From: Polytrichum commune
Lineage: Eukaryota > Streptophyta > Polytrichopsida > Polytrichales > Polytrichaceae
DNA length: 64,000 bases
Assembly (NCBI GenBank): GCA_950295325.1
Contig: OX485803.1
Span: forward strand, 59,413,554 to 59,477,553
Reading direction: 5' to 3'
Shown here: positions 295 to 59,540 of the stretch, one piece after another
Numbering within the stretch: position 1 is the first letter of the stretch
How the letters are laid out: every line of letters begins with the position of its first letter
Translations under genes and position numbers: made by a program
The notes under the pieces: generated by a model
Told to the model about the DNA's origin: nothing
Seen by the model: the letters and a program-made list of their open reading frames with translations, nothing else
Database searches by the model: none

Positions 295-3200
295 ATGGCC
301 AATTCTTGGGTTGGAGTGTTCGACCCTACTAGGCTAGTGAGCTCTTTGTCTGGGTGTGTGCTCTCTTCTCAAACTCGGTGTCCCAATTTGTCAGTTTCTA
401 ATTCTTGTCATAAAATCCCACCTTCGCCCTTGAAAACTGGCAGTTTGAATGTTGGGTTAGGGTGTCAAAACTTGAATGGGAGGAGACCAAGTGCACGGGC
501 ATCATCTCTCCCACAAGATTCAGATTTGGGTTCAATTGGAGAGCCACATTCTAGCAACATTGATGGAGCTTCGGTTCAGAGAGCTGGGTTAAGTTCCGAG
601 AATTTGGAACTGGATTCATTGCTCCCTTCCAGAAAGGTGAAACCTGAGGCGGAGGTGAAACCGAAAGCCAATTCTGTGCAATCCGCTATGGAGAGAGCCG
701 CAGCTTACAAGAAATCGAAATCAAAAACGCCGCCGGATGCCCTAACCAAATTTTCTTCTTCTTCTTCTTCTCCTTCTCCAGTACCTCCTTTGAATTTACC
801 CAAAGTGGAGATAGTGGTTGGTAAGCAATTCCAATCGAACATTAAATCTCCTATTTCCTCCCTAGATTCACCTACCCCTTCGACTCCCGAAGTTAGTAGT
901 ACCTCGTGTGGAGGGTTTGATTATGAGTCAATTGCATCAGTTCCAAGGTTGGAGCCTCCGAAGCAATTGAATGATGGACTTGTAATGGAGGACAAATTGA
1001 ATGGAGGTGGTGGTGAGGTTAGTGTACCCAAACAAGGAGGTAGTGATGAGGAGGTTAATGTAGTTGATCTATCGGCCTTTGAGAAAGCCCTGGCTTACAA
1101 ATTGCAGAAGGCCGAGATGATGGATGCTCTGAAAAAAGAAGAGAAGGTCCAGGAGACTCCTGCAATATCCGCGATCAAGGAGGAAGATGAAAAAGTTGTG
1201 GAAGTAGAGATCCACACTCGAGAAGGCATCATCAGGAGGAAAATGTTGAAGCCTGAAACAACCTTTGCTAATGTCAGGGAATTTAAAAAAACAGGGGTTT
1301 CGGACATGGATTTTGTGGGTTTAGGTTTTGCAGACAAGAAGACCTCAACATCCATTCCTGCCAGAGTGGGAGAAGAGTATGCAGTACCTACAGGTATGTA
1401 CATTCTGAATTTTTTTTGTACCAGTGCATGTCCTCTCTCATTCATTTGGCCAACTTCAATTTTGAAGTAAATCTCAATTCGGTGCCTGTGAGCTGATGTT
1501 CCTCAGTGTGCAAATCTGCCTCATGTGTTTTACCTTCAATCGGTTCCTGGACGCATTGGACACCAAGTTTCTCAACAAATTGTGAGTGACATTATGTTCT
1601 GCAATCAAGGCGGTGAGCATGGGTTAGTGCTTTGTGAGGTGCATTCAGATTTTTTTTCCAGAGCCTTGGGGAGGGATAACCAATGACTTCTTTCACTGGA
1701 TGTGCAGGTGCATTGCCGGAAGTTGAGATTTTGACAAGGGATGCTGGTCTCCAAGCACCAAACTTTATGGAAGAGAAGAATGGAGATGTTTATAAACCAC
1801 GAGTCACAACATGGGGTGTTTTCCCTCGACCTGCGGACATATCCAAAGCAGTAAGTTGAGTATCGTTTTATTGTGATTTCCTACTTTTCACAAATTATGT
1901 TGAGTGATGAATTTACTGGGTTTAGATATAGCATTACATGAAGTAAAGTGTATAGAAATCGCATCATCCCTGCTTGACTTTTTTGTTCTTTGTCTCTAAG
2001 TCAACATCCAAATTTCTGGGTTGAGGTCACACATCTGACAAATACTCTAGAAGTACGTAGTAGCCCTGCAATTGAATTAGATTAAGGTGGAGTTGACATT
2101 TTACTGGCTTCTCTGTAATCGCTCCTCACATTTGTGAATCAATCTGAACCAAACAATCTTGTGCAGGCCGACCACATTTGTGATTGATGACATAATTTCC
2201 CATTATTTGTATGATGTTGATTTGTGACTGTAGTATGGAGGAGGTCGCAACATCAAGCCTGGTCAAAAACTTGAAACAGAAGAGGAAAGGGTAGCACGAG
2301 AGACTCGGACCAAGAAAATGTATGATGATTATCGCAAGAAGATGGGTTTAGACGTTGATCCCAAAGTCAAGGCACGCAGTGAGAGGGTGAGCGGTTTGTG
2401 TTCCCATTGGAACAGTTCAATTCAATTCAGGTTCTTGAAGCTTTGTATAGGTGTTGACTTTTACTAGTGCTTTGTGTTCACTTATTTGTGGTTCAAATCA
2501 ATTTAAATTTTGGCTGCCCAGCCCTGCTCCAGCTCACTTGTATCTTTAATGGAGGCAAGTTGGGTTAATTGACAGGCTATGAAGCAGGGGGAGATGTTAA
2601 TGGATACAGGGCGATTGAGAGAAGCTCTTGTTGTCTTTGAGAGTGTCATGGAAGACATGGTTTTCCAGGTACCAGACCTTTCACACATCAATGTAGAATG
2701 TTTTCTGGATGTGCCAGGAAGCTGCTTTCTGGCAGTGGCTCTCAAGAGTACTAAAGAGTGCTCATGCTTCAGCTTTAAGTCTTTCATTGGTTGAGATCCA
2801 CTTAGATCTTGCATGGATGTTTTGATTCGACATGAAAGAAAATGAACCAGGAAGCACCTAATGGTGTTGAAGTTATTTTGAGATTTCCTTATCATGCTCA
2901 AGATTGAAGTTGGGCAGTTGGTAAAATTATGAATTTCTAGTTTATCACGATTCAGGATCCAGTTGGTATTGAATTTGAAGGTCAATAAAGAGTGATCTGT
3001 ATGCAGAGTGAACTGCATGGACAGGCAGCACTGCAAGAGGCTGTGTGCTTAGACTCTATCAACAGGTGGGTGCTAACTTGCTCACCCTCCCCATAAATTT
3101 CTGGAATATGTTTTCTGAAAATTTGGGATATTAGACGACTTTTGCTAGTACTTTCTTTGGCATTAGTATGTCTGAGGAACTCATTTTTAGGGTTGGACGT

Positions 3201-3673
3201 AGGCAGATCTGATGAAGCCAAAGTGAAGTATGAGAAACTGGTGTCTCACCCAAATGGAGCCATTCGGAAGAAGGCGCGACAATTTCTTTTTGGCTTTAAG
3301 GTTCTTCCTCTTATTGCCCTGAAAGTTTCCTCATTTTTGAAGTCACAGAGGTATGCTAATTAGAAGAGAGGACGGGGTTGATGAGAACCACTTGAAACTT
3401 AGGTCAAGTTTACTGAGCCATTAATCAGGTTAGTTGAAACTTGGCAAATGGTTGCAGGCTGCTGAAAAATTGAAAGTGAGTGGAGGTTACAATTGGGATG
3501 GCTCTATCTACCGCAAGTACTTCGATTCTTTCGCTGATGGCTACAACACATCATACAAAGGAAACGAAGAGGATATGAGTACCGAATCATTCATCCAGGC
3601 GCTGCCATATGCTCTCTTTCTTATTTTTCCAGTTGTCCTTGTTTTCACACTTGCTGCACTTAAGAGCAGTTGA
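295..3673 (+). CDS. Predicted plastid-targeted TPR-like protein with C-terminal membrane segment (LPA1-like/At4g28740-like)
   Basis: Seven exons read through in frame: 295-1393, 1708-1850, 2234-2386, 2576-2668, 3007-3065, 3207-3300 and 3458-3673. All have GT-AG borders and the phases match, giving about 618 aa. The start at 295 (gctATGGCC) is the first in-frame Met in a good context. Residues 1-70 are Ser/Thr-rich and poor in acidic residues, as in a chloroplast transit peptide. Residues 100-300 are low complexity, with two similar short blocks (MERAAAYKKSK near 131, FEKALAYKLQK near 261). The conserved part starts near 300 (EVEIHTREGIIRRK...). It continues through a helical TPR-like region in exons 4-6 (MKQGEMLMDTGRLREALVVF; SDEAKVKYEKLVSHPNGA) and ends in a hydrophobic helix at about 597-615. 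The architecture recalls LOW PSII ACCUMULATION 1-like plastid proteins. That name is from memory and needs a search; a thylakoid role is inference. The donor after 3300 (AAG|GTTCTT) is the weakest splice site. No inactivating mutation is seen. Confidence 0.85.
1394..1707 (+). other. Intron 1 of the plastid-protein gene
   Basis: The donor is CTACAG|GTATGT and the acceptor is TGTGCAG|GTGC, splitting a Gly codon in phase 1. Reading through the donor would add a short unrelated tail ending near 1470, so an intron-retention transcript would truncate the protein before its conserved half. No repeat is recognised inside. Confidence 0.8.
1851..2233 (+). other. Intron 2 of the plastid-protein gene
   Basis: The donor is GCA|GTAAGT (consensus) and the acceptor is GACTGTAG|TATGG, phase 0. 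It is AT-rich and unique-looking. Introns 3-6 (2387-2575, 2669-3006, 3066-3206, 3301-3457) are also short, without recognisable transposon insertions. Confidence 0.8.
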
Positions 3674-3984
3674 AGCTACAGCAATGTTGAAGCCTTTTGT
3701 ACAATGAGCTACATCCAAGTTGGGCAGGAAATTCAAGGGGACTGAAGCTGATATATGTATAATTGGCACCATTTCATGAAGAATACCTAGATGAGATGAG
3801 TGCATTTTCATACACAGATCTTAATCTCGGTCATCAGCCAACAGGCATAGCTAAAAAATGAGACATTTAACCGTGATACTTTTAAAGGAGTGTTGGGCAT
3901 TGTGGATTTACACGATTCAAGGTGGTGCAGTTTATCAAGAAAAACTACCTCATGTATGTGGGTTGCTGATTCATCCCAATAAAT
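3674..3984 (+). other. 3' UTR / downstream flank of the plastid-protein gene
   Basis: This begins right after the TGA at 3671-3673. An aataaa at about 3978 is a candidate polyadenylation signal, just before repeat-derived DNA starts near 3990. No coding potential is seen. Confidence 0.45.
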
Positions 3985-3989
3985 CCTCT

Positions 3990-4070
3990 ATTTAGTCAAC
4001 TGCTTTTAGTTCCATAAGTCTTATGGGTTCCCAGACTTTTAAATCAATTTCAATATTATTTCATTGAGAT
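3990..4070 (+). repeat. LINE 3'-tail copy
   Basis: The segment with 'ccataagtcttatgggttcc' followed by 'gacttttaaatcaatttcaa' matches the tail found after the LINE coding region at about 5965-6035. It also matches tails at 51.05 kb and, reversed, at 59.58 kb. It is probably a severely 5'-truncated LINE insertion, or the end of an older copy directly upstream of the LINE body. Confidence 0.55.
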
Positions 4071-4089
4071 GTTCTCTGACCCTGATGTA

Positions 4090-6050
4090 CGGGTTACATT
4101 GAGGTTACTAAGCTTGCAAATGTTTTTACAAAAGGGGAAATATGGACCAATATGAAAAATTTAGCAAATCATAAATCATAGGTTAAAACTTCAGTTTCTA
4201 AAATGGGTTTCAATTAATCTATGTGAGTCAATCACAGAGCTATTTAATTTAGTGGCTAGAGAAGGTTTTCTGGCTTCATGGACTACCAACATTATTCAAA
4301 TGATTTTGAAATCATGTGAAAGAAACTCCTTGGGGAACCATAGGACTATAACACTCGGCACAATCTTTGGCAAGCTCTATGGCTCCATTTTAGAAAGAAA
4401 AAAAATTGGTTGATGGGTGAAATTCAAAGGGGTTAGAACAAGAGGCCAAGTAGGTTTTAGGGAAGGTAGATCTATTGTGGACCACATCCTTACATTATGG
4501 ATTTTGATTGAACAAGAAATATTTTTGTTTTGTTGACTTCAAAAAAACTTCCAACACAATTCCACATGACAAGCTTTGGGAACGTCTCCAACTAATAGGC
4601 ATACCACTTCATTTCCAACAAATCAACGGAGATACACATGGTGAAGTAATGTTTGACATTGGAGTCAAAGAAGGTTGCCCCCTTTCCCACACTATTCCAC
4701 TTGTACATTGATGAACTTGAAATTTTTTGGGACAAGATCGATGGGGATTCTCCATATTTATTTGATACAATGGTCGGCATTCTTAATTATGTTGATGATG
4801 TTGTTATGCTCTCTAAATCAGGATTGGGCCTACAAAGACATTGAACAAACTACATGAGTTTTGCACTTTTTGTAGCCATGAAGTCAATCTATCTAAAACT
4901 AAAAATAATGATCATTGGCCACAACAAAAGGAAATTAAACCAAGAGGCACTTTACCTAGACAAGGACCAAATTGAGATAACCCACAAATATATATATTTT
5001 TGGATTGATTCCTATTCACATGGTTATTTTGAGCCATCGAATAAAAGGCAAAGAATGGCAAGTATGAAAACCTTGATGGACACTTTAAGGAAAGAAGCAA
5101 CTAGTTGGCATCACATGTTAGGAACTCAAATCCCATCTATTCAAGGCATTTGTGCTTTTAATGTTCACATATGGTACTAAAATTTGAGAAGACTTTAAAA
5201 ACTCTCATTGAAAGGTTTTTGAGAAGGGCATGAGGATAAATATGATGTCTCATGTCAAAATATGTTCTTTGACAATCTATCGTATTTTGTTGACTAATTT
5301 GGAGAACTCCCCATAGAAATATACGTCCTTAAGCTCACCATGGGTTTTCAACAACAACTTTCTCACTTACCCTCCTCTTGGTTAGTCAGTCATGTAGCCT
5401 CATTTTCCCGTCACCTAGCCAAACAAGGATTTTACACTTGGCACAAATCAACAACCATGTGAAAAGCATCATGGGGTCTTGCTCATTGGGAAACCCATGA
5501 CAACCCAACAACATCAAAAATTATATTACATGATATCAAGGAGTCTTTTCTTGCTAAAGGAAGAAACTAGTTTACCTCCACCTCAAGGTTTTTCTCAAAT
5601 TAAAATGTGAATTGTGCTTGAAGCGACCATTGACACCACCAAAATGCAAGATCATCGCTACTTTCCACACTGCAAACCATAGACTTGCAATTCAAAGTAA
5701 ACGGTGGTCAACTATCTCTATCTCTAGAGATAATAGAGTATGCCACTTTTGCTCTTACAATGCAGTTGAAACTAAGACACACTTTGTGTCAAAGTGTCCC
5801 CTACACAACCCCATTAGGGATAAATCTCCATCAATATTTGAGAATGTAGTATTAGGGAGCCTAAAGTCTTTCTTTCAATCGGATCATCAACTTGACATTA
5901 GTCTCTAACTCATGGAGCTACTACACTCCACCACTCTAGGGAATTAGCTAGTTTGAAACCATCTTAATGTACTTTAAGTCCCATTAGCCTTTTGGCTTCC
6001 TGGACTTTAAAATCAATTTCATTGGGATCTAAACATCGGAATCAACGTTT
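4090..6050 (+). mobile_element. Degenerate non-LTR retrotransposon (LINE) with reverse transcriptase and C-terminal zinc-binding region
   Basis: Reverse-transcriptase blocks appear in order but in shifting frames. RGQVGFREGRSIVDHILTL is near 4440-4505 and FVDFKKTSNTIPHDKLWERL (catalytic block A) near 4525-4585. EGCPLS follows near 4668, then the YVDD catalytic block (LNYVDDVVMLSKSGLGLQ) near 4783-4836, and VNLSKTKIMIIG near 4880-4915. The C-terminal part at 5612-5908 has a zf-RVT-like CxxC...HxxxxC cluster (VCHFCSYNAVETKTHFVSKC). The element then ends in a short tail at 5965-6035 that is repeated elsewhere in the window. Several frameshifts and stops make it non-autonomous. The 5' half (endonuclease) is not recognisable. 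The order of motifs and the tail define plus-strand orientation. Confidence 0.85.
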
Positions 6051-39060: not shown

Positions 39061-40388
39061 CTTCTCAAATCAAGACCCACCTACTAACCTCCTCCTCCAA
39101 AAACTGATCGTCAATCCTTTGGTGACCAACACATGTAGATTAAAAAGTGCTTTAGTGGGTGCATGGAGGTCTAGCAGCATGTGTCGACGGCCCTTCACAT
39201 TGTAATAGCCACCATAATGTAGTTGGTTAGTGGCTTGTGCTTATTTACATGCGAATACCTTTAACCCACTATTCTCTATAATCTAGTGGGCGAACGACCT
39301 ATAAAAAAACTCACCCTTATTCTATCTTACCAACAACTTCAGTATGATAAATCCGGGTGAAGCACTGTCACTGAATATTATTAGAATCAAGCAGCTTATA
39401 GTAGTTGAATAATGCTATGTAGGACCTCGACTGATTTTGCCCCAAATTTCCCTTCTTAATCACTGCAAGTGATTGTTTTTTAAAAGCACAACATGGTTCC
39501 AGGTCAATGCTAAATGTCAACTTGGTATCTTGGGTATTTTTCCAGACTTGTTTTCCATGCAGATAATACAAGGTATTGCATACTGGAGAAAAGTAAATTC
39601 AAATGCTAATCAAATTCAGTCAACTAAAGTGAATAGTGAATGAATCATACATGAGGCTAAAAGTGCTCTCCAGGTTTGGATGGCATCAATTACTGATGGC
39701 ATGTGCTCATAGGCTACTTCCACACACAAGCTTATGGGATCCCTTGAAATCGATGATGATAATGTTCATTTGATAAGGAGTGATACTCGCGCATGACCAT
39801 GATCAACAAGTTCAAGCCTTTTAAAAAAAAATTAAAATATTTTACTTTTATTTTAAAAAATTAAATGTTTAGATAGAAGGCTAAAAGCCAACGCCATACC
39901 ATTGAAGCCAAAAGAGAAAACGCACCCACTTCGAGGGGAGGTGGGGCCCCTCAAGCGCGTAACACCCACAGTCCGGGGAGTTTTATACAAAAATCGGTAC
40001 ATTTCCGATCTTTTATAAAGACATTTGGATTTTTATTTTTTTGCTCGGAAGCTACCTAAATCCAATTTTTATTCTCGGTTAAAAACCGATATTTAACTTT
40101 GCCATTCAGTAATTTTCCGACTTTCTGAATTTCATTTCGGTATGTTTCCGAAGATTTGTATTGTATGTCGGATTTGTTTTTTTAAATATTGTAAACAAAA
40201 ATTGGTGTTATGCTTTTAAAGGGGTGAATTTGTGTTGATAGAAAATCCAAGTATCTTTGGAAGGATTTGAACCTTGCCAAGCCCCCACCAACTTGGGGCC
40301 AAGGATTTAGCCTTTAAAAATATATACAAATCCAAAAAGGGTTCATACATTATTTAGAGGCTAGTTAGTACAACAATACATGCAACTT

Positions 40389-40875
40389 TTAAACATCCGT
40401 ATCTTCAGAATTAGAAAACATAGTTGAACTTACTGAACAAGATGCATCACTTGCAGAAGATACATAATGTGAAGGATTAGCATATAAAAACCGGTATTTG
40501 GTTTCAGTTTTCCACAAAGGAATTGCCTCTTCAATAATATTATCAAAGTTTTCATCTGGTCCCTCTAAAGCAATTCTAAACATAGCTTCCAAATTTTTAT
40601 TTCCAAGTATGATTCTCACTCGTGTTTTTATTAAATTTTGGACACTAAACGCCCTTTCACAAGTGGATGTTGATACACATTGTACTCTAGCCAAATCAGC
40701 AAGGACAAGCAAATTAGGATATCGGGTTTGCAAAGAATGATTCCATGTGATCATTCCCCATAAATCTCTACAAGTCTTATCTCCCCATTCAGTGGTGGCT
40801 TGCAGTTTGAAAGCTAGAAATTCACGCTTACAAGCCATCACATCAACGAAGGAGGGAAATTTTGAACCTTCTTGG
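40389..40875 (-). pseudogene. hAT transposase C-terminal (dimerisation) region
   Basis: The frame reads LAFKLQATTEWGDKTCRDLW, then YPNLLVLADLARVQCVSTST and CERAFSVQNLIKTRVRIILG, then NLEAMFRIALEGP. The 'YP.L..LA....' / 'S...CER.FS..' / 'K...R..L' pattern is the hAT family C-terminal dimerisation domain. This version resembles the ZNF862-like branch, whose naming is from memory. About 150 codons are open, after which homology stops abruptly near 40870. The zinc-finger and catalytic DDE parts are deleted. The tail after the domain is low complexity (SDASCSVSSTMFSNSEDTDV). Confidence 0.85.
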
Positions 40876-41048
40876 TAGCGATCATGCCCATAGTGTGCCC
40901 AGTCTCAGAATCGCTGTGAGAGATCCAGAAGATTTAAGAATTGTTGTGAGAGATTCAAGAGATCCAGGAGACGAGCATTGGTTCCGCACAAGTTTGTTTC
41001 CTACTCTTCAAGACTTATCTACAGGATTTCAAGAGATTCACGACCTCT

Positions 41049-41345
41049 GAAACAAATGTCTCCGACTGGATCGCAGTGGATCACCGCACCGAACTGGACC
41101 TCCGAACTGGACTTTCACCCTGGACCTCCGAAACAGATGTCTCCAACTGGATCGCAGTGGATCGCTACACCGAACTAGACCTCCGAAGTGGACCTTCACC
41201 CTGGACCTCCGAAACAAATGTCACCAACTGGATCGCAGGTGAATCGCTGCACCGAACTAGACCTCCGAACTGGACCTTCGAACCGGACCTCCGAAACATA
41301 TGTCTCCAACTAGATCGCAGGTGGATCGCCGCAGGTGGATGTATA
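41049..41345. repeat. 81-bp tandem repeat inside the hAT element
   Basis: The phrase 'gaaacaaatgtctcc' starts at 41049, 41130, 41211 and 41293, giving periods of 81, 81 and 82 bp. There are three full units and a partial fourth, differing by scattered substitutions. The unit is a multiple of three, and the plus frame 41076-41399 stays open with a 27-residue period (SETDVSNWIAVDRYTELDLR...). It lies in the element's presumed untranslated leader on the opposite strand, so coding is doubtful. Confidence 0.9.
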
Positions 41346-41939
41346 AACAAACAGAAGCGGAAGAGCAGTAACAAAGAGCACAGAGAGAAATCCCAGTAGA
41401 GGAGTGAGATACTTTGCACAAAGGACTCAAACTCCTTATACTCGTGAGAGAGGGTCCTTGGGTGCTTAGAGCCTCAAAACCCTAATCGGCCCAGTGAACG
41501 GAACCAACCCTAAATTAATTAGCATCCATGGTTCTTTACCTTATGAGTCATGACTCTAGTATTACCCTAGTAGAAAATTCCGCCCTACCCCTAGTCCCTT
41601 TGGCTACTTGCCTAAAATTTAAAAATTGGCTCGGTAAATATCCTAAAATATGATGCCTCAACCGGCTATATTGCCGATCTTTTCTCATTTGAACCGGTCA
41701 ATTTCCGACCTTAACAATTTTAAGTCGGTACCTCGTCCGAATCATTGCGAACTCATTCGGAAATCTCCAAAAAATTTCGGCTAGCTCGTAACTAAAGTTC
41801 GGTACCCCCCGTTCATTGGTAACACCACCACGGCCTTTTGAATCTTTGGAATGTATCCTCAAAATCCAAGAATTTGATGTGATTTTTGGAATATGATAAT
41901 ATATACAAACACATTGAAATATGTAAGCATGTTTTATGC

Positions 41940-53488: not shown

Positions 53489-56400
53489 TCATCTTTGTGT
53501 GGTGATGAGTTGAATCCCATATTGGGCATCGACTTGTAGGCAATCCTTCAAGTATGGCACAGTGGCTAAAACCCATTCGTTATCCAATTTGGGCTCATAT
53601 GGGCAGCTGAATTTGAACTCTGGGATTTGGTAGCAAGTGTCTACCGTTTGAGCGCGAACACAAACCTCTTGGCTGTTGGGTCGGTTGTCAATAAACCAAG
53701 GTGTGAGCGCCCCATAGCCTTGTGCAGTGCCCCCAAATGTCGATAAGGGAGTGACAAAAAGGTAATCTGAGAAGCTAAGACTGATAATCTCCGCCAATGC
53801 TTGCTTGTCTTCCTCCTCATTGAAATGTTGGTAGCGGCCATGAGTGACCTGGATGAAACCCACGTCGTCCATCGCCGGCGGGTTGCGCACATACCGCTCC
53901 GACAGGTTCGAGTGCAAGCTTGGGTAGAGTGAAGTGATGAAGGCAATGGTCCGCATCTTGTCCGTTGCATTGTAAACTATCTGGAAGTAGCACCCACATG
54001 GTTTGGAGCAATGTTGGACCGGTGTATAGGTGGAAACTTGGTATCAATATACAATATCAAAAACACCTTCCAGTTTGACATCAAATTGATAATGCTACTC
54101 CAATATTGATATTTTGGTGGGTATCACAAGATGAAAAAATCTTCATATAAGTTATTATTTGGGAAAATTTACCTTCCTAATGTTCTACTAATAAAGTGAT
54201 CTTACCTAGGTATGAACTTATTTCTTGCATCATATATGAAGTCCCCGTATGGATACAAGACTAAAGATATCCTCAAACTTACCGATACCCTATCAGCATC
54301 AAAAATTTGTAAAAACCTCATTATATGTGCCCAAAGTGAGATCCAAAAAAGGTGTTGCCAGTCCAACACTTGGTTTGGACTTATTAAAACATCATTTTCA
54401 AGATGCATGTTTTTGGATTCGATTTCGTATTAGAAGCATTCTGAAGACTATAAAGTCTAAGAATTTTAATACATGGAGGAAAAAAAATGGGAGGGTTTGG
54501 TTGGATGGTGATCCTTGCTTTATATTAGAAAACTTGCTTGTAACTGGCTTTAAACACTACACTTGAAAGTGTAAACCTTTTCTTATTCAAATGCAATTGA
54601 CATTAATGGATTCCTTTCTCTCAGTGTCTTCTTTCCAAGCACATTCAAGTTCTTTGTGAGATAGGTAACACATTATCAAGCCTTTTAAAAAAAATGCAAT
54701 TTTTGTATGTTCAATCAATTTCTTGCATATAATTTTAGGGATGTCAAGATGTTAAATTTAGCTTTAAATTCTATGAATGTAATCTTGATTCAATGACTTG
54801 TAATAACTGTTTTTTTCATGTGAATGACATTGAGCATTGAAAGATTGTCATCTTTGTTCATTTCAATTTCCTACAAGCACCAATTATGACCTTCGCAAAT
54901 TGAGAGTTGAAGTCTTCCAACATTTGGAATTAAGGCAAGGTAAAATTTCCACAATTTTCTCTGCCATGAGATTTCATGCTTAGATCTTTGATTCCCCGTC
55001 CCATGGAAAAATCTTATGAAGCTTAGTAATGTTATGCCAATCACCAATCTAGTAGTTTAGAGTTGAGGGGTTGGCACTCGTACCTGAGGAACAACAGGAG
55101 TTGAATTTGCTCCATCGCTAGGAAGAATGTTGTTGTCAAGAGCACACTTGAGAATCCTTTCGTTGATGAGCGCATGCATCTTATTGAAATCATCATCCCC
55201 GTATCGGTAGCGGACTTGAATGCCAAAGCGACGATTGGCATCTTTCAAGTAGGCCGAGTGAATCTGCTCAATGCGTCTCCACACTTCATCGGAGGGAAGC
55301 ATGGAGGAGCGTAGAAGATGAGTGAGCGCCATTCGGTCGGGAAAGAGTTCCTCTAGAGTAGAGCGGAATGAGGGGATGGCAAAGAGCTTGGGTAAGTAGT
55401 AAAGGCATCCGTTGATGTAGATCCACGGGATGTGGCCCAAGTAGCCCTGCTCAGTGTCACAGAAGAACCTCGCCCCGGGATGGCACCAAAAGTCATTGGC
55501 CGTGAGGGCGTAGATAGCCGTGCTATACATTTTTGGGGTGGTAACTCCTGTATAATAAACGGGAGTCATCTTCATAAGAAGTCAATTTAGAAGCTGAGAC
55601 TCAAATAATAGATTTTCATTTACAACAAATATATGTTTATTATAAAAGATAGTATTTTACTATATGATATGATAGCAAATTTCCTTGTAAGAAGTTCTTA
55701 AAACATTTCTAGAGAGCTAGGGGGTGTGGATGGTGACCCATCACTATGTCATAATAAATTTTATTTATAATAAATTATGAAAACATCAACTTGTGGAGGA
55801 CCTGGTCCATAAGTTGTATGATTTCATTGACACTTATGGTACTGTTAATGAATTCCTCTCAATGCCCTCTTTCTACACATGTTGTGAGAATTTACATAGT
55901 ATTGTGGACATGCCTAATTCGGTTATTGATCTTAGTGAAACACCTATATTTGAGTGGTATGTGGTTAGGTGTGACTCCAAGAATGGATACCCAAAAATAC
56001 ATGTTTAAGAAAAGGTAAACTCTATGCTCAAAAATGATAAGCATTCTAAACTCAATAGTTGAACATAATTAGAGGACATGTATGACCACGAGAATGAGCA
56101 CAAGAATCTTCACTTGCTAACGAATACAATATTCATACAAGCTCCAAAATGTGAGGAAAACGGCTATGGCCTCGATTTGAATTTGCTAATCAGATTGAAC
56201 TAATAGCATGTTTCCTATCCTTCAAGACAGTATCCATTTAAGACCCATCTACCATAACAAACGAGGCTTACTACGCATTAGGAGGGAATAATAGTAAGGG
56301 CTCAGGTGTTCTAGAGAGAAGAGTTGAGTGGTCACCCCGGGCCGTGGCGTCATCGACTTCGGTGTAGAATTGCGCAGCGGGCGACCAGTACTTCACCTTG

Positions 56401-57155
56401 GAGGCTTCGTACTCGGGGGTGAATTTCTTCTCGGGATCGAACAGCCACGAGGAGCCTTCGAAGGGCTCACACATGATGCCTGGCACCAGGGTTTCCGCGG
56501 GCACCAGAAACACTCGTTGTGTGAGAATTGCGTACAGGAGCGACGACACCATTGACAGGATCTTGTTCCCCAGCCCTGCGTCCAGGGCTATCCCGGCAAC
56601 CAGAAACCTGCACCCGCTCCCGTTGCTCTTGTTCAGAAAGTAATCCTCCACCGTGGTGCCCCCTAACCCTATGTTCTGGGTGCACGCTCGGTGCAGCTTC
56701 TCGTACTCTCTAAACACTTGCTTCCACTTGAGGTTGAGCTCCACGTCCTTGACGAACTTTCGGAGCGTGTAGAGAGGCTCCATCTGCTCTCGGCTCCGGC
56801 ATGGATTTTTTTGGTACCACAAAGCTCTGTCTTGTTCGGTGAACTCAGTTGGCTCCTGCCCTCCGGATGCGAACCTAGTTGCCTCGCGTAGAGCTCCTAT
56901 GAGAGACGGAACGTCCACTACAGATATGTCGGATGTGTTGAGCACTCGGTCGGTCGAGAATGCGAAAGTCGGTGGCTCAACTTGTGCAACCATGTTGGGG
57001 GTAGGGCTGGGAGAAATTACTGTTGAGGGATTTCTGTTGAGGGTGCAGAGGATGAGCCCCACTGCTAGAATGGCCACCAGGGAGATTCCTCTCGCTGAAA
57101 CAAACCATCCAGGAGTTACCCATCGCGGTAACCCAGAGGGTTTGTGAATATCCAT
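53489..57155 (-). CDS. Xyloglucan-type fucosyltransferase (GT37 family), Golgi type II membrane protein
   Basis: Three minus-strand exons, 57155-56336, 55547-55084 and 53980-53489, join in phase (1, then 0) to about 591 aa. AtFUT1 is of similar size. GT37 enzymes transfer fucose from GDP-fucose to galactose of xyloglucan or arabinogalactan side chains in the Golgi. Residues 1-18 are cytosolic, 19-39 form a single membrane anchor (ARGISLVAILAVGLILCTL), and a stem follows with N-glycosylation sequons. Catalytic landmarks are CRSREQMEPLYTLRKF (119-134), GLGNKILSMVSSLLYAILTQ (195-214), CEPFEGSSWLF (229-239), YLKDANRRFGIQVRYR (373-388) and STFGGTAQGYGALTPWF (508-524). The end GIQLI fits the family C-terminus. 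Met at 57155 is the first true ATG of the open frame. Reading through the donor after 56336 reaches a stop near 56271. No disruption is seen. Acceptor specificity cannot be told from sequence. Confidence 0.93.
53981..55083 (-). other. Intron 2 of the fucosyltransferase gene
   Basis: The donor is CCTCAG|GTACGAG and the acceptor is CTACTTCCAG|ATAG, phase 0. The 1.1-kb intron is AT-rich. A 105-codon plus-strand frame at 54249-54566 has no recognisable domain and is probably chance or a decayed repeat. Confidence 0.85.
55548..56335 (-). other. Intron 1 of the fucosyltransferase gene, containing a dispersed repeat
   Basis: The donor is CCCGGG|GTGACC, which is weak but the only one that keeps the phase-1 join to TATTATACAG|GAGTT and restores the family sequence (ATARG-VTTPKMY). 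About 60% of the intron is the repeat copy at 55790-56250. Confidence 0.75.
55790..56250 (+). repeat. Dispersed repeat copy (uninterrupted) in the fucosyltransferase intron
   Basis: It aligns with the two halves of the repeat at 23.58-23.77 and 24.76-24.88 kb, without the 986-bp pogo-like insertion. The TA at the equivalent site ('acgaaTAcaatattc', about 56129) is the empty target. The plus strand holds a 71-codon frame (MEDLVHKLYDFIDTYGTVNE...) that looks coding-derived but is not recognised. Confidence 0.7.
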
Positions 57156-59540
57156 TATTGGGTACCGGATGCAGCAACAAATTTCTAGTTGCCTCACCAG
57201 CTGGGTTTAATCAAATTCTTCTGCTCCATCCCGCCACTTGATGTACTCTATTTCTTGAACCCTCCATCTGGACCAATGGTAACTGCTGCAAGGTTATGAG
57301 TGCCAACTACAACAGATTGCAACACAAGAACAAATTTTGACAGAGATCCAAACGTCAAGTGAAATAGAAACATGTCAGTGTAACGAATACCAAATCATAT
57401 GGAAATGATGACTAGACGAGCATTAACTTCAGAAAATTGGCCCTCCCTGATGTGGGCTGCGAGCTTCACGGAATCCACAGGAAGTTTCCAACTTTATCCT
57501 TGCCACAAATTCATTATTACAACTATTTGATATTCTGACTCTTAGCTGCGGACCTACTTCGACAGAGCATTCTATTAGGTAAATTCGGCACATCTGTGAT
57601 CCTGTCGAGTGTGCCAGAAACCTAAATAGAATGCAAGGCCTGCATTACACGACCGGATTATTACATGAATGCAAAATAACGATGGCTCGCTTTGTTATTT
57701 TCAATAGCTGGTAAGTAATACATGTCGAAAATAAATTAGAAAGCAGAATTATTGCTCGCGCAACTTCAGATATATGTCATGCTTCTAAATACATCAGAGC
57801 GCTCATCCTCTGCTGCTTCCATATGACCTAAAGCCTTCGGATAGAACTCTCTAATTTCCCAGGGTGATTCACTAATCTCTAACACAGATAGAATGATGCA
57901 TTGATAGACTTTTCTCAATCAGCAAGACCTGAGAAAAGTCCTTACATAGCACCAAAACGGTATGCCAAAAAAGGATGCGACATTGGTTTCAATGAATATA
58001 CCTGTATATCGGTACGAGGATTGATCCTACGAAACCGCCAAAAACATTTGCAAGCAGCTCCAGGTATTCAGTGATCATAGTCCTCGAAAGGACCAAATTC
58101 CATCGACGCAGAATCTGCTGCACACCTACATCCTTGCGGGGAAAAAAATCCCAGCATCATCCCCAGGCGTGATCAGATCGCCATTCCCTCAAGAGAAGAC
58201 CTGAGCAGCTGTGAGCTTCTCGATCATACCGCGCATTTCTAGATGCCCCAAAACCTGCAAGCTTCCTTCTCTGTCGATTAGATCAGACAGACACTAGGTC
58301 GTCCACCATTTTCTATAACATAAATGCAGGTCGAGGATCCAGCCACTCCACACTGATGAGGTTGCAATTCCTGCATAACCCCATCGTGTCGGTGAACATC
58401 AATTCTTGTTTCTGAAATCTGTCCCTCACTTCCTGTACCGATTGTACACCCCGCAACCGCACGCTGATCAGACCTGGGTGCATTGTAGGCCTCGCGTCCC
58501 TCACTGCAAGCAGAATCTAAAGTTAGGCAAGATGGGAGGGCTTGGTGCGCTCCCAGATTTGCTTAGCCTTTGCCCCGAACTTGCCCCATGTAGAACCTGT
58601 GTGGTTAATAAAGCCCGGCTCGCCCAGAATCCGCACCTCAACCTTCAATGCCCGCAGGTTACAGAACTCTTTATCGAGTGTAGTGGCTCTCTGGAACCAG
58701 GGCCCGTGACTGGCAAGCTCTTTTACTAAGCTTTTTGTTATTACCCTTGTCAGTGGAGGTATAAGGTGCATCCGGATTCACCTCAAGGTGTCAGATCCTC
58801 CGACCTGCACTCTGAAACAAGGCGCATTCAAAGCTTATTCTTTTTTTTTAATATGTTTTCAAAACAAATCGGAGGGCCAATTCAAGGAACTTTTTTTTGT
58901 TTGTTGTTTTGTTTTGTTTTTTTTTCTTCACTTTTTTATTTACATGTCAAATTCCGCAATGTCACGCTTGTGGCAACCAAAGTGGTGCACGTGACATTAA
59001 GGAGTTCTCAAATGTTAACGCATGGATGCGTGATAAAAGAGAATTAGTGTAGCATGTGAGATTCTGGAATAACACAAAGTCAACAACGCAATAATGATAA
59101 TAATTACAATGATGACTCCATGATGCGTGCGAGCGTGTGGTTTGAATTCTTTGGTGGTTTACTTTAGTGTCAAAACCCGTGATATATGGTGGGAAACGTG
59201 GCAACAAAGAGTGAGATTTAAACTAAGAACATCTGCTCCCTAGGGTTTTAAGATATACAAGAAGGAGTGACATTAAGGAGGTTGGTATTACAAAGTTTAG
59301 AGTGTATATATTTGAGCCTTGCAGATGATACATTTTCATTATTTGGCGGATCATTGTAGAAACACAATACTTATTTGTGGAGTGGTTACAGGGGAGGCAC
59401 TAGGAGAAAACATGTCCATTCCAATTTTCGACCATTTGTTGCTATGGACAAGTTGCAACAAATGGTTGAAATGGACAAGCTTTTCTCCAAGTGAGGTTAT
59501 TATGTGGTTCTAGATTGCCAACTATACTTAACCCTTTAAT
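57156..59540. other. Upstream flank of the fucosyltransferase gene
   Basis: This includes the promoter and 5' UTR of the minus-strand gene. No TATA box could be assigned confidently. The composition stays mixed up to about 58.8 kb, then T-rich runs (58850-58925) mark the change to repeat DNA. No second gene is supported; frames at 58.3-58.8 kb have no recognisable domain. Confidence 0.35.

Follow-up and report, generated by a model that had tools for sequence, protein, structure and literature searches.

What does a transposase recognise at the ends of an element that no longer encodes it? The question is raised by a short hAT element in Polytrichum commune, found within the 64,000-nucleotide stretch analysed here (the window) at 39967-41818, i.e., 1852 bp between two copies of GTAACACC (Table 1). 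The original prediction, made from the letters alone, described a hAT element whose subterminal zones are dense in TCGG-containing motifs, suggesting a distinct transposase specificity, and this interpretation is partly supported by the present analysis. The main result is that both ends of the element carry rows of short sites placed at whole-turn spacing of the DNA helix. Elsewhere in the window, three minus-strand frames at 53489-57206 match xyloglucan fucosyltransferase (PF03254), a plant cell-wall gene, and a plus-strand open frame of 408 aa without a Pfam match lies at 244-1470.

Table 1. Features of the hAT element (window coordinates)
Feature	Position	Strand	Basis or remark
Left target-site duplication GTAACACC	39959..39966		Identical to 41819-41826
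Left terminal inverted repeat CACAGTCCGGGGAGT	39967..39981	+	28-base pattern from its base 4 has 136 genomic matches
Left subterminal array, 9 TCGG/CCGA sites	39994..40171		Enrichment; phasing R 0.96 at 10.2 bp
C-terminal remnant of transposase frame, 171 aa stop to stop	40389..40904	-	88-91% identity to five loci
hAT C-terminal dimerisation region PF05699, residues 43-109	40578..40778	-	23.2 bits, cut-off 21.4
Left deletion junction, element base 932/933	40898..40899		Longer-copy homology stops at element base 930-932
81-bp tandem array, 3.6 copies	41042..41333		TRF; longer copies have coding sequence and other arrays there
5' leader of transposase gene and right end	41352..41818	-	Homology of element 1386-1852 to longer copies, entire or piecewise
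TATA-like TATAAGGAG (candidate promoter element)	41432-41440	-	Read from sequence
Right subterminal array, 8 TCGG/CCGA sites	41631..41802		Enrichment; phasing R 0.93 at 10.5 bp
Right terminal inverted repeat, reverse complement CAATGAACGGGGGGT	41804..41818	-	Read from window and copies
Right target-site duplication GTAACACC	41819..41826		Identical to 39959-39966

Borders, termini and copies of the element

The genome was searched with the element plus its duplications as query (the element being query 9-1860; 40 of 438 candidates scored). On the left, 37 of 39 other copies start at query 5-13 and the remaining two at 19 and 65, and on the right the 24 pieces listed end at query 1860-1865. The predicted delimitation to the base is thus borne out, both by the exact GTAACACC pair and by the homology of other copies, which ends at the same borders. 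Allowing at most three mismatches, the 28-base pattern from the left terminus has 136 genomic matches (63 forward, 73 reverse), and its reversed control has none in the genome. As in other hATs, the terminal inverted repeats are short and start with CA (CACAGTCCGGGGAG / CAATGAACGGGGAG in most printed copies); the right one, as reverse complement, reads CAATGAACGGGGAGT in most copies printed and CAATGAACGGGGGGT in the window copy. The latter equals CACAGTCCGGGGAGT at 10 of 15 positions, counted by eye, in agreement with the partly matching 15-bp termini described before.

A search for 8-bp duplications at other copies had been proposed as a check, and the length typical of hATs was indeed found: among 41 distinct two-ended copies, the duplication is exact in 32, has one mismatch in five and two or more in four (one of these four, L009, matches after a one-base shift). 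Within the duplication, T at position 2 and A at position 7 each occur in 21 of 37, consistent with the nTnnnnAn preference of Ac-type hATs. The set of 41 leaves aside six duplicate loci (L001, which is the window copy; L002, L003 and L008, the same as L027, L026 and L028, respectively; and the segmental duplicates L010 and L029), the one-ended L036, L046 and L047, and L050, whose right end is damaged. Convincing ends were also looked for in L057 and L063, where none were found, and both were left out of the counts. L009 and L010 are near-identical, share their flanks and lie inverted to each other on contig C5, at a distance of about 6.5 kb, and L029 and L030, near-identical with the same flanks, lie 84 kb apart on C3; both pairs are segmental duplications and not separate insertions.

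A deletion derivative of longer relatives

The longer relatives that had been expected in the host genome exist as nine two-ended loci of 3885-5657 bp (L029-L035, L037, L038; L029 and L030, one duplicated insertion, both counted), all with an exact 8-bp duplication. When the 171-aa remnant was used as a protein query, 151 matches were obtained (150 of 1573 candidates scored), and some lie in open frames of more than 500 aa; five loci at 88-91% identity to the remnant have frames of 503-560 aa, two of them being one duplicated insertion. Reading toward the left end, the gene order in the longer loci is leader, finger, core and C-terminus. The dimerisation domain announced for the window scores above the cut-off there (Table 1) and reaches 25.7 bits in L030 (PF05699, Dimer_Tnp_hAT; cut-off 21.4), as expected of a hAT. 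The finger is zf-C17orf113 (PF25431; 45.8 bits in L030 and 43.3 in L031, cut-off 29.5), with a finger-region match in L037 as well; this is the finger of L030, L031, L058 and L060, and no BED match, the usual N-terminal finger of hATs, was returned in those Pfam scans. A zf-BED search gave no match in the genome and none in the control genomes either, and is for that reason uninformative. A 442-aa frame of L031, shortened by a stop, has no Pfam match. All frames are broken in the copies read of the window element's own family (family A), with no intact transposase gene among them, and L058, from the related family C, has a single 755-aa open frame with finger and dimerisation matches and a DUF4371 match below the cut-off.

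Homology to L029-L035 and L038 covers two segments of the element: bases 1-932, with the left end and the 3' part of the gene, and approximately bases 1386-1852, with the leader and the right end, this second segment matching whole or piecewise. What lies between 932 and about 1386 has no match in the longer copies except for 29 bp in L037. Since both ends are common to longer coding copies and the coding core is missing, the window copy is a non-autonomous, internally deleted derivative of the 3.9-5.7 kb relatives, in which both ends, the leader and the C-terminal codons were kept and are now joined by the 81-bp tandem array. Its non-autonomous nature, with leader and C-terminus retained, had been foreseen, and both parts do match the longer relatives. 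The accompanying claim that the catalytic part was lost is roughly right, the finger and most of the core being gone, but the retained C-terminal stretch would, as in other hATs, include the third catalytic acid. Two other non-autonomous copies (L052, L053) carry a 45-bp array instead, and deletion derivatives therefore seem to have more than one origin.

Where does the 81-bp array come from? Compared with 10 longer copies, it has no match in nine and the 29 bp of L037 lie at the array edge, the L036 and L037 sequences being incomplete in this comparison. A further longer copy similar to L037, L050, has a partial 81-bp unit in its leader; its left half, at 94%, is nearer to the window copy than those of the others (92-93%), and its leader is likewise at 94%, as in L037. 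Because of that partial unit the array looks native, its putative origin being a tandem expansion of a leader segment of its own lineage. Two other readings were discarded: a captured host gene as source, since each of the nine loci fetched in the genome search for it (L039-L047; 40 of 70 candidates scored) also has element sequence next to the array and none of them shows an outside source, and a role as extra transposase sites, since the array has 10 CCGA sites and yet they are unphased (R 0.34).

In the longer copies, other sequence fills the segment from the leader to about 40 bp before the start codon. It includes arrays of 31-69 bp units (L029, L030, L032, L033) or of 45-46 bp units (L031, L034, L035 and, seen in a piece, L036), and TRF reports other arrays in this segment of L037 and none in that of L038. 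Unrelated tandem arrays are thus seen in the same leader segment before the start codon (L031 2790-3740, L030 1690-2410, window 41042-41333). In pairwise comparison, the leader and the start region are common to the subfamilies and most of the segment between them is not, and the arrays seem to have been replaced or reborn repeatedly. Another small transposon is nested in the element in L039, where it interrupts the leader at 1614-2024; this insertion is 411 bp long, has the inverted ends CACGGGG...CCCCGTG and is flanked by two copies of AAACAGAA.

Subterminal sites and their helical phasing

Motif enrichment was tested in 39967-40181 and 41539-41818 against 1000 dinucleotide shuffles. TCGG/CCGA occurs nine times on the left (shuffle mean 1.96, reached by 0 of 1000) and eight times on the right (shuffle mean 2.33, reached by 1 of 1000). 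Two of the three motifs named in the original prediction are enriched, namely TCGGTA (two left, three right; reached by 4 and 1 of 1000 shuffles) and TTTCCGA (three left, two right; 1 and 3 of 1000), and CCGATC is not (one on each side; 90 and 115 of 1000), so that the enriched core is TCGG. AAACGG is absent from both ends, and the motif does differ from that of Ac, as had been stated.

The sites are mostly 11, 20 or 31 bp apart, i.e., on one face of the helix. The gaps in the window copy are 11, 40, 30, 11, 31, 20, 11 and 20 in the left array and 43, 31, 20, 12, 20, 20 and 22 in the right one, and the family A consensus has 11 left sites with gaps of 11, 20, 20, 30, 11, 20, 11, 20, 11 and 20, and right gaps of 31, 43, 31, 20, 12, 20, 20 and 22. 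A Rayleigh-type score, maximised over periods of 10-11 bp, was compared with 5000 random placements: the consensus reaches R 0.96 on the left (0/5000) and R 0.93 on the right (1/5000), and the window copy was equalled by 0/5000 on both sides, figures for which the sites are treated as independent, whereas a common tandem origin is possible, and that come from one genome with few copies per family. A test for a 31-bp period was weaker than that for the 10-bp one. Two inner stretches tried as further phase controls held only three and two sites. As control hAT families, F (L067, L068) and G (L069, L070) were picked from a search with the dimerisation domain; their enriched words show no clear phasing, one of 12 motif tests being nominal (ATCC in the second G copy, 52/3000), and the control is modest because the ends, one per family and without duplication check, were placed where two copies part.

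Related families with a like layout and other words

Relatives from four further families were taken from the remnant protein search: B (L055, L056) and E (L064-L066) at 63-69% protein identity, and C (L058, L059) and D (L060) at 48-49%. Copies of C, D and E have exact 8-bp duplications adjoining CA...TG termini, and the two B copies show theirs at the homology border. A ranking of all four-letter words by subterminal enrichment puts TCGG first in A, CCGG in both B and C, TAGG in D and CGGC in E (CCGG and TAGG were noticed by eye before the ranking). Given as the number of 5000 random placements reaching the score (left / right), phasing is 36 / 42 in L055 and 97 / 47 in L056; 191 (four sites only) / 28 in L058 and 2 / 0 in L059; 10 / 0 in D; and, with overlapping CGGC/GCCG pairs counted, which makes the values of family E optimistic, 18 / 1 in L064, 124 / 1 in L065 and 0 on the right of L066, whose left end has too few sites. 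If any CGG/CCG is taken as a site, the values for B are 5 and 7, and those for the left end of C are 745 (L058) and 104 (L059).

The positions of the sites can also be compared with those of family A. Sites no more than 2 bp from an A site (left and right, respectively) are 4/5 and 4/5 in L055, 4/4 and 5/6 in L058, 5/5 and 7/8 in L059, 5/5 and 7/10 in L064, 5/5 and 7/11 in L065, and 3/3 and 7/10 in L066. In D they are 4/6 (229/5000 random) and 7/8 (0/5000), a ninth right site lying beyond the A range, and the 11 coincident sites of both ends are all in the A orientation. Ungapped background identity to A goes from 0.29 to 0.56 across families, with 0.30 and 0.32 for D. Between family B and L031, 42 of 51 CGG columns are conserved and 219 of 422 others (Fisher p 2.3e-5), and in the inverted partner sites of B the CG is mostly lost. 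Taken together, the four families of the same genome appear to keep the layout with CCGG, CGGC or TAGG, with a support that varies among them, and the distinct transposase specificity proposed earlier finds only indirect support in these differing words (TCGG, CCGG, CGGC, TAGG) in a like layout.

The duplication of family D is exact in L060 (element at 1420-5294, minus orientation) and inexact in L075, the other D loci being one-ended. Searches with its two ends gave 235 and 224 first-look candidates, and the 40 scored in each are 96-100% identical, which suggests recent activity. Borders are consistent among those scored: all 39 other left ends begin at query 55-63, the true end being 61, and of 39 right ends 38 terminate at 236-249, against a true end of 240. 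Many of the latter finish at 236, which means that the final bases of the right end vary. Several paired ends are only about 0.66-1 kb apart, suggesting, at this high copy, a young MITE-like burst.

Proposed mechanism and rival explanations

The reading that we favour, with a probability of about 0.8, is that the window copy belongs to a plant hAT family and would be moved in trans, that the fingers of a transposase oligomer would dock on sites along one face of the helix, and that the geometry of these sites would be selected while their word changes. The transposase of full-length relatives would thus move the window copy, its finger binding the TCGG/CCGA sites along one DNA face; several fingers of one oligomer would sit along each end, with opposite-orientation pairs 11 bp apart. 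Docking would bring each end to the oligomer, which would cut at the terminal repeat and insert with an 8-bp stagger. Selection would hold site positions and orientations, counted from the tip, across families, and the word read by the finger would change between them from TCGG to CCGG, CGGC or TAGG; re-amplification of units or gene conversion among them might account for the joint change of some 20 sites. A bolder formulation, which we consider evenly balanced, is that the ends are a conserved ruler, with about 20 predicted finger sites per element at fixed tip distances and orientations on one helix face, and that the whole site set changes word between families; if the ruler is kept through such a change, fingers and arrays would have co-evolved into mutually blind systems in one genome.

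Could the spacing be a mere relic? The ends might have grown by duplication of a 31-bp unit with two TCGG-like sites 11 bp apart, both site and spacing being functionless, and in several longer copies TRF does find a 31-bp unit at the left end; since 31 and 11 both approximate whole turns, phasing within a single family would follow from duplication alone. We nonetheless regard this as unlikely, since the four 31-bp units of the left consensus have drifted apart outside the sites and stayed alike at them (58 of 66 comparisons equal at motif columns, chosen by eye, vs 45 of 120 elsewhere), and since site positions agree across families, with a D background near random, though the word has changed. 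Somewhat less probable still is that the sites bind a host protein (a transcription factor or chromatin protein) that regulates the transposase promoter: the right array adjoins the leader and the TATA-like box, but phasing is equal in the left array, which lies where the gene ends (3'), the sites persist in copies without the coding core, and CpG methylation is unfit for family D, whose TAGG sites contain no CpG.

The retained C-terminal frame could act as a functional transposition repressor, comparable to KP in P elements, and it is in fact open in the window copy (171 aa) and includes the dimerisation region. Its history makes this very improbable: with pairs summed, dN/dS comes to about 0.89 for 24 non-autonomous copies vs 0.59 for 10 longer ones (copies with at least 120 gap columns in the region or a match spread over more than 900 bases being left out), and of those 24, 18 have stops, two more only an indel and four are open. 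The remnant codons are nearly neutral and the frame is not maintained, and a repressor role was consequently discarded.

Comparison with known hAT systems and outlook

Earlier publications on hATs describe a finger that binds subterminal repeats and an oligomer that joins the two ends (PMC10368747, PMC3260210). Among the closest known systems is maize Ac/Ds, especially Ds2, which is alike in the 8-bp duplications, the ends shared with a longer copy, the internal filler and the repeated subterminal sites; Ds2 has about 200 bp of each end in common with Ac, internal filler is frequent, and Ac transposase binds subterminal AAACGG repeats cooperatively (PMC3260210). Unlike Ac/Ds, there are no AAACGG hexamers at the left or right end here, with helically phased TCGG sites instead, and the relatives code for a zf-C17orf113 finger; in contrast to Ds2, a tandem array apparently native to the lineage makes up the filler. 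Becker and Kunze (1997) reportedly found binding of the Ac transposase to ACG and TCG triplets as well, and TCGG may be less foreign to Ac than the original prediction stated.

Hermes likewise combines an N-terminal zinc finger, subterminal repeats, 8-bp duplications and an oligomeric transposase; its fingers bind a quasi-palindromic site pair cooperatively, and mutating some inner sites left about 70% activity (PMC10368747). The AAGT/AAGC sites of Hermes are reported as asymmetric between the ends, with only two palindromic pairs (PMC10368747), whereas here each end is a phased array in which inverted pairs recur, at positions that are alike from family to family. Kat1, a domesticated hAT, also has a repeated subterminal word, a hexamer thought to aid the transposase, but that word is TGAATT and regular spacing is not mentioned in the available portion of the source (PMC4763223). 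A search of the literature on the phasing, spacing or periodicity of subterminal sites, with most subscription journals outside it, found no report of helically phased hAT ends, which is a weak negative.

The use that hAT transposases make of their many subterminal sites is a standing question, and ends in which the geometry is kept and the word changed would make it testable by comparison. The comparisons that are opened concern the finger residues that would read the changing letters, the joint change of some 20 sites, and a possible blindness of the families to each other's ends. The layout may also be a signature for locating the ends of this hAT clade in other plants.
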